A DNA stretch of 64,000 bases, taken from assembly GCF_035083965.1 (NCBI RefSeq), contig NC_089723.1:3410001-3474000 (forward strand). Direction: 5' to 3'. The position numbers and the translations under genes were made by a program. The notes under the pieces were generated by a model, which did not search any database, had not been told where the DNA came from, and saw only the letters and a list, made by a program, of their open reading frames with translations. Positions 22,501-24,303 of the stretch are shown here, piece by piece (position 1 is the first letter of the stretch; each line of letters begins with the position of its first letter). The stretch is from Branchiostoma lanceolatum (Eukaryota > Chordata > Leptocardii > Amphioxiformes > Branchiostomatidae).

Positions 22501-24303
22501 GTGGAGATGATGCACATGGCGGCCCCGCGGTATGACATGGACAGATTCGGCGTGGTGTTCCGCGCCAGTCCCCGCCAGGCCGACGTCATGATCGTGGCAG
22601 GCACGCTCACAAACAAGATGGCGCCGGCTCTACGAAAGGTGAGGTCTGAGGGCTACATGTGTGTGTGTATGGATACTTTTATTGTAAATGTTCACAGTGG
22701 TTTTAATTTTCACATTTGTTGCGGTGCCTATCCACAATAAAATCATGACATTGTGTTTGTTTTGACTGGCAACATAAAGCATTGGGAAAAACTCTACCGC
22801 TCAATTAAATCCCCGCAGAAATAAATGAATTCACCGTAGTTAAATCATTATATCCAAAGTACAGTAAACTGTTCTGAGAATAACAAAAGAAGTGAAGTTT
22901 GCCATCTCCGCTTGCTTGTGTTGCTCTTGTTTTTCCCAGGTGTGCGTGTTTCTGTGTGTGTACACGTGTGTATGTATGTGTGTGTGTGTGTCTGTGACAG
23001 TCTGTGCATGTTTCTGTGATTGCCAATATACACAGTGCAGCATTGTCATCCTCAGTGCACATGCTGCTATTTCTGTCAGGAAGGGTTGCAAGCAGTATGG
23101 GTAAGGGGGTGAAGTCTGCCGTCTCTGACAGCTTGTGTTGTTGTTTTTCCAGGTGTATGATCAGATGCCCGAGCCCCGGTATGTCGTCTCCATAGGAAGC
23201 TGTGCTAATAGAGGGTTGGGTAAAGGGGTGAAGTCTGCCGTCTCTGACAGCTTGTGTTGTTGTTTTTCCAGGTGTATGATCAGATGCCCGAGCCCCGGTA
23301 TGTCGTCTCCATGGGAAGCTGTATGGGTAAGGGGGTGAAGTCTGCCATCTCTGATTGTCTTGGTTTGCTGTTGTTTTTTCCAGGTGTATGACCAGATGCC
23401 CGAGCCCCGGTATGTCGTCTCCATGGGAAGCTGTGCTAACAGTGGGATGGGTAAGGGGGTGAAGTCTGCCATCTCTGACAGCTTGTGTTGTTGTTTTTCC
23501 CAGGTATATGACCAGATGCCAGAGCCCCGGTATGTAGTCTCCATGGGAAGCTGTGCTAACAGTGGGATGGGTAAGGGGGTGAAGTCTGCCGTCTCTGATA
23601 GCTTGTGTTGTTGTTTTCCCAGGTATATGACCAGATGCCAGAGCCCCGGTATGTTGTCTCTATGGGAAGCTGTGCAAATGGTGGCGGCTACTACCACTAC
23701 TCCTACTCTGTGGTCAGGGGCTGTGACAGGATTGTTCCTGTGGACATCTATGTGCCTGGTAAGAACTGACAGATTTGTAGCATTTCACTATCTTGGATGC
23801 GGAAACTGTACATAGAGAAATTGTTGGTATATTTCTATGAATACATTGTTTGCTTTCTGCAAGTCAATTTCTGATCATTTTTCCTCAGTGGGATATTAAG
23901 TACCTACCATAAGAGAAATGTTTTGTTGTACCTTAAACCACACCACATCTTGGGTCTACTGGGAAAGTCTGTGAATTCAAGTTTTCATCCCAGCAAACTG
24001 TTTCTATCTTGTTTCCTTGCTTCATTTATACCAAGAATCATTCAAATGAATTGGTATGGCCTTAAGAATACTTAGTACTCTGGTAGTGAGTTAGCCTGAG
24101 TGTCATCCTGTTTCAGTTCCAGTTTACCTTCACAGCCTGGAACTGTAACAGGATGACACTCGTAGTGAGTGTTCTTACTCAACAATCTGTACCGTTTTGT
24201 TCCAGGCTGCCCCCCTACTGCAGAGGCATTACTGTACGGCATCCTCCAACTGCAGAAGAAGATCAAGAGAACAAAGACCCTCCAGAAGTGGTACCGCAAA
24301 TAG
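19509..24303 (+). CDS. NDUFS7: NADH:ubiquinone oxidoreductase core subunit S7 (complex I, N2 Fe-S cluster; NuoB/PSST)
   Basis: Seven coding exons: 19509-19524, 20014-20056, 20780-20848, 21791-21902, 22459-22638, 23623-23758 and 24206-24303. They total 654 nt, 217 residues, and every phase joins; human is about 213. Residues 1-35 form a mitochondrial presequence ([14 protein letters not shown]..., Arg-containing, no acids). The mature part is very conserved: [30 protein letters not shown], the [20 protein letters not shown] loop, [20 protein letters not shown] and a C-terminus ending KWYRK. The four N2 cluster ligands are present: the CC pair, Cys in MGSCAN and Cys in GCPP. The protein passes electrons from the Fe-S chain to ubiquinone at the inner membrane. 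Four partial copies of exon 6 sit in intron 5 (separate entry); only the last copy is complete and encodes the [14 protein letters not shown] part. AATAAA follows at 24649. Confidence 0.97.
21407..21717. mobile_element. MITE with CAGTGTTCTC ends in NDUFS7 intron 4
   Basis: The left end CAGTGTTCTCACCAGGATTT...CAGCATAGGGG is the reverse complement (few mismatches) of the right end ...CCCTATGCTGAAAAGG, CCTGGCGAGAACACTG. It is about 310 bp and non-coding. ATGGGTA occurs on both sides (about 21396 and 21716), possibly the target duplication. CAGTG ends suggest a hAT-type non-autonomous element, which is an inference. Confidence 0.75.
22097..22180. repeat. Dispersed repeat shared with 51713-51832
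   Basis: The ordered words GTCTGTAAC.CAAACTCC, GGGGGTTT, then GATT.AATTCAGGCTA are shared between this stretch (NDUFS7 intron 4) and 51713-51832 (EPB41L4A intron). Diverged copies of a non-coding repeat. Confidence 0.5.
23101..23622 (+). repeat. NDUFS7: Tandem array of four partial NDUFS7 exon-6 copies with splice sites
   Basis: Repeat units begin at 23101, 23220, 23327 and 23451 (periods 119, 107, 124 and 120 bp) and run into the genuine exon 6 at 23623. Each unit holds a GTAAGG/GTAAAG donor-like start, GGTGAAGTCTGCC, a TTGTGTTGTTG pyrimidine tract, an AG acceptor, then the exon start encoding [13 protein letters not shown](M/I)GSC. Exon-like copies are 23153-23219, 23272-23326, 23384-23450 and 23504-23570 (67, 55, 67 and 67 nt). 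Each ends at a GTAAG-type donor, where the real exon instead continues GCAAATGGTGGCGGC. Copy 1 has Met to Ile and copy 2 a 12-nt deletion. Copies keep 90% or more identity by eye. Related intron-only words occur at about 21717-21757 and 22893-22942, just before a GT microsatellite (22942-23000). Confidence 0.9.
24098..24161. repeat. Perfect-arm hairpin in NDUFS7 intron 6
   Basis: GAGTGTCATCCTG...GTTCCAG (24098-24122) pairs with CTGGAAC...CAGGATGACACTC (24137-24161) across a 14-bp loop. GTAGTGAGT flanks both sides (24083 and 24163), consistent with a tiny inverted-repeat insertion and its target duplication. GCCTGAGTGTCATCCT also occurs near 12790. Confidence 0.8.

Follow-up and report, generated by a model that had tools for sequence, protein, structure and literature searches.

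A tandem array of four decoy copies of an intron-exon boundary in a lancelet NDUFS7 gene

The DNA analysed here is a 64-kb window from the lancelet Branchiostoma lanceolatum, whose plus strand carries the 3' part of NDUFS7. Four exons (21791-21902, 22459-22638, 23623-23758 and 24206-24303) join to encode a 174-residue partial protein, and comparison of this product with PDB matched NDUFS7 chains with E = 2e-103. The best-matching chains are presumably mammalian, and we take the retained cysteines of CC, GSC and GCPP to be the N2 ligands. Judged from this predicted product, the gene that bears the array described below is NDUFS7. Exon numbers 4, 5 and 6 are provisional and follow a preliminary description of this DNA, in which the real copy of the duplicated exon was called 'exon 6'; a search of the window did not reveal the gene's first exons. 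In splice sites, a slash marks the exon-intron junction.

21791..21902, plus strand: NDUFS7 coding exon ('exon 4'); the open frame that joins it to exon 22459 gives NDUFS7
22459..22638, plus strand: NDUFS7 coding exon ('exon 5'), donor AAG/GTGAGG
23623..23758, plus strand: real NDUFS7 exon ('exon 6'), 136 nt, donor CTG/GTAAGA
24206..24303, plus strand: last NDUFS7 coding exon

The last NDUFS7 intron also contains, at 24098-24161 and ahead of acceptor 24206, a 25-bp inverted repeat with arms that are 96% complementary and a 14-nt spacer.

Upstream of the real exon at 23623-23758 lie four decoy units of 119, 107, 124 and 120 bp. Tandem Repeats Finder reports a repeat at 23097-23679 with a period of 119, 4.9 copies, 87% matches, 7% indels and a score of 860. 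The units start at 23097, 23216, 23323, 23447 and 23567, which gives spacings of 119, 107, 124 and 120 bp. Each unit runs in the same order from a GTAAG or GTAAA start through a branch-point-like CTGAC or CTGAT, a pyrimidine tract and CAG to the first 51-63 nt of the exon, and the repeat unit thus spans the intron-exon boundary. The exon part of the decoys ends in ATGG or TTGG, followed by the next GTAA, and all four decoys have both an AG acceptor and a GT donor. The decoy introns, measured from decoy donor to next acceptor, are 52-57 nt long, and this length is short for a chordate intron.

23097..23215, plus strand: unit 1, intron half (GT 23101, AG 23151-23152) and decoy exon 23153-23219 (67 nt)
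23216..23322, plus strand: unit 2, intron half and decoy exon 23272-23326 (55 nt, lacking 12 nt)
23323..23446, plus strand: unit 3, intron half with a divergent pyrimidine tract and decoy exon 23384-23450 (67 nt)
23447..23566, plus strand: unit 4, intron half and decoy exon 23504-23570 (67 nt)
23567..23622, plus strand: intron half of the real unit, with branch-point-like CTGAT, pyrimidine tract and CAG

The preliminary description had claimed an array of four decoys directly before the real exon, each with a tract, an AG acceptor, the start of the exon and a GTAAG-type donor, and this anatomy is confirmed by Tandem Repeats Finder and by inspection of the splice signals. The acceptors (first exon base) fall at 23153, 23272, 23384, 23504 and 23623, exactly where that description had placed them, and its decoy exon lengths of 67, 55, 67 and 67 nt, all 1 mod 3, are likewise correct. 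A 19-nt word from the unit, searched with up to three mismatches, has eight matches in the window, five of them inside the array. Only 0.01 matches are expected, and the array is therefore far beyond chance. The unit junctions are clean, with ATGGGTAA at four of the five unit starts and TTGGGTAA at the remaining one. In the divergent pyrimidine tract of copy 3, alignment with the other units shows differences at 8-9 of 49 columns when gaps are counted. The tandem decoy array is real. Searches of Rfam (at gathering score) and of a phage collection, the latter uninformative for animal DNA, yielded no match, and a tRNA search found none.

The donor sequence is TGG/GTAAAG in copy 1 and TGG/GTAAGG in copies 2-4. 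Scored in bits with a human donor matrix, the donors of copies 2-4 reach 7.7 and that of copy 1 reaches 3.9, compared with 8.8 for the real exon, 11.1 for exon 22459 ('exon 5') and 3.8 for exon 4. Pyrimidine content of the acceptor tract is 0.70-0.75 in the decoys versus 0.70 in the real unit, and CTGAC or CTGAT is present in all five. We saw no mark in the acceptor itself that distinguishes the real exon, which may instead be marked by its greater length and by the very short decoy introns. Re-splicing of the decoys was also considered. Joining exon 5 to any copy recreates a donor-like AAG/GTGTAT or AAG/GTATAT that scores 5.6-5.7 bits with the same human matrix, above the exon 4 donor and below the exon 5 donor. 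This candidate was rejected because the junction with the real exon carries the same signal, which therefore does not separate decoy from real exon.

The consequences of decoy use were predicted by enumerating the 16 subsets of whole decoys that can be spliced onto the real exon, one of which (none included) is normal. Each of the other 15 subsets leads to a decay-type stop located 131-320 nt before the last junction, farther than the distance of about 50-55 nt beyond which a stop is expected to elicit decay. This stop comes immediately in the next exon in all 15, as had been predicted in the preliminary description. When retained decoy introns are allowed, 55 chains result (the 16 whole-decoy subsets included), and these comprise 1 normal chain, 49 with a decay-type stop, 1 in frame and 4 with a different C-terminus in the last exon. 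The single in-frame chain with a retained intron uses acceptor 1 (23153) and donor 2 (23326) and adds 58 residues. Furthermore, if a decoy is spliced straight to exon 24206 in place of the real exon, the reading frame and the native C-terminus are kept in four of four cases, because the decoys (67 or 55 nt) and the real exon (136 nt) are alike 1 mod 3 in length. Such a product would be 23 residues shorter (27 for copy 2), and the lost residues belong to a stretch that the PDB alignment shows to be conserved. The claim that every inclusion triggers decay therefore stands for whole decoys beside the real exon, but not for the four replacements and the one retained-intron path, and the label 'all poison' is too strong.

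Poison exons are alternative exons coupled to nonsense-mediated decay. Inclusion of an NDUFS7 decoy beside the real exon resembles them in producing an early stop, whereas the possible in-frame replacement of the real exon sets the decoys apart. Mutually exclusive exons are a second point of comparison, since each of the four decoys could replace the real exon in frame, yet each such replacement would remove the conserved residues noted above.

Related sequences were also found outside the array.

22886..22939, plus strand: relic unit, an intron half with acceptor CAG/GTGTG (here the slash follows the AG), then a GT-rich stretch and no recognisable exon half (local alignment, nhmmer)
21716..21751, plus strand: dispersed copy that matches the initial segment of the intron half and lies roughly 40 nt ahead of the exon 21791 acceptor (nhmmer E = 3.9e-7)
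12867..12893, minus strand: further dispersed match to the intron-half word, located away from the identified NDUFS7 exons (nhmmer E = 8.5e-6; 1 mismatch in 19)

The relic has a local alignment score of 52 versus a maximum of 30 in 500 shuffles, and it was recovered by nhmmer with E = 8.6e-8 using a profile of the five array units. Its best scores are with copies 3 and 4. An exon remnant sought behind the relic acceptor was not found, as the best match, GTGTATG, was equalled or beaten in 379 of 500 shuffles. The copy at 21716-21751 lies in an earlier NDUFS7 intron and has an alignment score of 43 versus a shuffle maximum of 26 (500 shuffles). Beyond the two dispersed copies, the next nhmmer match has an E value of 0.16. 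The copy at 21716 includes a GTAAG word, and the GTAAG donors of the decoys may therefore have been borrowed from a dispersed repeat rather than copied from the end of an exon.

This same copy adjoins the 3' side of a transposon-like element at 21406-21715, in the intron before exon 21791, that has 16-bp inverted ends matching at 15 of 16 positions (CAGTGTTCTCACCAGG and CCTGGCGAGAACACTG). A clear target-site duplication is not visible by eye, and joining the flanks of the element made the array match no longer than before (score 43 either way). The literature was also searched for short sequences taken from the repeat and from the transposon-like end, and no match was obtained.

Differences among the copies were examined in a core of 51 nt of exon that is common to all five. 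Every variable core site is a third codon position, both among the five copies (6 of 6; hypergeometric P 6.9e-4) and among the decoys alone (5 of 5; P 0.0026). Six of the seven core changes are silent (P 5e-4 to 1.4e-3 with transition weights of 1 to 4; omega 0.045-0.056), and the sole non-silent change is ATG to ATA in copy 1. When the 12-nt tail is added and copy 2, which lacks it, is omitted, third positions account for 10 of the 11 variable sites (P 2.5e-5), and decoys 1, 3 and 4 alone give 7 of 7 (P 2.1e-4). These tests involve few sites (6, or 11 with the tail) and a pattern that was spotted post hoc, and homology is less certain in the tail, where two differences alter a residue (AGT or GGT; AGA or AGT).

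The five units have five distinct exon cores, or four if the ATA change of copy 1 is disregarded. Exon distances rise along the array with r 0.895, a value reached among the 120 possible orders only by the observed order and its reversal. By the four-gamete test, i21 and i29 in the intron half are each incompatible with exon site e3, all four combinations being present, although this amounts to two intron sites and one exon split, as e3, e18 and recoded e33 are non-independent and mark the same split. The conflict between intron and exon halves suggests that the units are mosaics, which would point to exchange between units or haplotypes, with recurrent mutation also possible. Copy 1 and the real exon unit differ at 2 of 44 intron sites. 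In the intron heads, 2 of 28 sites vary versus 0 of 34 first and second codon positions, a difference that is not significant (Fisher P 0.20). Silent divergence from the real exon amounts to 2 to 5 of about 10.8 effective sites, and pooling of silent and intron sites yields a neutral divergence of 0.13-0.15, or 1.7 to 3.7 times published lancelet averages.

Tandem repeats of intron-exon boundaries, termed 'mirages', have been published for the lancelet genes Adh3, globin, PGBD5 and troponin C, and the mRNA in such cases was either reported or inferred to be unaffected (PMC3087553, PMC3902484). In globin BflGb6, the duplicated unit is described as joining the 3' end of an intron to the 5' part of exon 2, with 6 versus 3 units on two haplotypes (PMC3087553). 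The NDUFS7 units have this same composition, AG and GT signals are likewise found in many units, and unit length is similar (107-124 bp versus 150-160 bp in globin). The gene affected here encodes a complex I core subunit, and its copies differ almost solely at third codon positions. The Adh3 mirage is also a minisatellite across an exon-intron boundary, and the authors of the globin study, who name Adh3 and other loci, state that Adh3 data and globin RT-PCR suggest regular splicing is unaffected (PMC3087553). However, Adh3 units are 10-72 bp, and somatic length instability is reported for that gene (Canestro et al. 2002, doi 10.1093/nar/gkf386, as cited in PMC3087553). PGBD5, for which the report also cites Adh and troponin C, has 60- and 108-bp repeats at both 5' and 3' splice sites, whereas NDUFS7 has them at the acceptor boundary only, and one annotation took the PGBD5 repeats as an extra exon (PMC3902484).

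By its anatomy, the NDUFS7 array fits as a further case of this already described lancelet kind. The passages on mirages in PMC3087553 and PMC3902484 mention no codon-position analysis. The third-position bias among mirage-type copies is new here and is the part worth following. Splice-site repeats are not described in the passages found on amphioxus huntingtin and VCBP, and NDUFS7 is not mentioned among the matches listed for amphioxus or lancelet, poison exons and tandem duplication.

We propose that the array is probably a lancelet mirage, namely a minisatellite whose unit joins the end of an intron to the initial 51-63 nt of an NDUFS7 exon, which is tolerated and reshaped by haplotype exchange and whose decoys are recent cast-offs of functional alleles. 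Most likely, the decoys are passed over in most pre-mRNA molecules, and their occasional inclusion would mostly be destroyed by nonsense-mediated decay, such that the array is tolerated. Growth and shrinkage would occur by unequal exchange between strongly diverged haplotypes. In each exchange, the 5' part of one haplotype's functional exon would become a new decoy while the functional exon would come from the other haplotype. Decoys would thereby carry alleles already filtered by selection at the protein level, and their silent differences would be allelic differences between functional exons of different haplotypes that were recently turned into decoys. Under this proposal, the decoys vary only at third positions because they were cast off recently from selected functional exons.

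Such a process is possible because lancelet diversity is high, with a synonymous pi of 0.0397 reported for B. floridae (PMC12862219) and a SNP rate of 4.39% and synonymous rate of 0.070-0.075 for B. belcheri (PMC4284660). The pooled divergence nevertheless lies above usual allelic diversity, and the haplotypes would therefore need to be older than average or of hybrid origin. Overall, the decoys have the appearance of functional exon alleles that were recently cast off and shuffled by unequal exchange, and not of pseudo-exons with a long history of drift.

An unlikely alternative is ordinary tandem duplication, after which the decoys would have drifted freely since birth without exchange with functional alleles. 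The tandem anatomy and the relic unit at 22886-22939 are consistent with this history, as are the 12 nt missing from copy 2 and the ATA change in copy 1. Neutral slippage alone, which had been offered in the preliminary description, nevertheless fails to account for copies that differ almost solely at third codon positions, decoys alone included. Reckoning from silent sites, idle drift is expected to leave about 13-37 private changes per 51-nt core, whereas copy 1 has 1 and copy 3 has 0. The case against idle drift hinges on these silent sites, because the more lenient intron clock (2/44, copy 1 versus real) predicts just 1.2 to 2.3 core changes. We consider it very improbable that the array is an assembly artefact in which haplotypes or repeat units were misplaced in tandem. 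Lancelet drafts can mis-assemble such arrays, the globin array having been rebuilt from trace data (PMC3087553), and PGBD5 repeat numbers differ between two genome-sequence versions (2 versus 7 and 3 versus 6), although re-examined and new reads upheld the PGBD5 sequence (PMC3902484). The allele-like silent differences are compatible with misplaced haplotypes, but the number of distinct cores, even with the ATA change set aside, exceeds the two haplotypes of a diploid, and a simple haplotype misjoin would not create clean repeated unit junctions.

The array could also be a regulatory poison-exon array in which controlled decoy inclusion lowers NDUFS7 output via nonsense-mediated decay and array length sets the dose. 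This reading, which we hold to be improbable, draws on the early stops in all 15 whole-decoy inclusions beside the real exon and on decoy acceptors that look no worse than the real one. However, the four in-frame replacements mean that using a decoy would not always be poisonous, and a third-position bias is unexpected for poison exons. In addition, the decoy donors are 52-57 nt from the next acceptor. For arrays of this structure in globin and Adh3, the data are reported to suggest undisturbed mRNA (PMC3087553). A regulatory function of the array is thus unproven and unlikely, and the array is probably not a regulatory switch. There is only a very slight chance that the decoys are under coding selection of their own, each yielding, when used in place of the real exon, an in-frame NDUFS7 isoform that retains the cysteine of GSC and the native C-terminal part with GCPP but is 23 residues shorter (27 for copy 2), and that four redundant copies are maintained to control complex I at the level of protein or dose.

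With NDUFS7, a core respiratory gene joins the lancelet genes in which mirage arrays have been reported, and the proposal that decoys are fresh cast-offs of functional alleles offers a simple explanation for clean decoy exons. If this proposal is true, mirages would be a record of exchanges between haplotypes. The array also poses a question about splicing, namely how the spliceosome ignores four near-identical acceptors located 119-470 nt upstream of the right one.

Several other features of the window were observed. Antisense to the array, a 284-aa open frame occupies 22805-23659 on the minus strand; its openness is the sole support for it, and it is probably no gene. An 81-bp repeat of 2.6 copies at 43738-43946 lies in a minus-strand open frame (43660-44034) that has no Pfam match; its period is a multiple of three, and it is perhaps a coding minisatellite. 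A polyketide- or fatty-acid-synthase-like gene is present on the plus strand at 29691-38139, where the two frames scanned (29691-31307 and 34717-38136) encode ketoacyl synthase, the start of an acyl transferase, KR, carrier and thioesterase domains. Finally, a 1264-aa open frame on the plus strand at 8101-11895 encodes C2H2 zinc fingers and a ZNF592-type finger.
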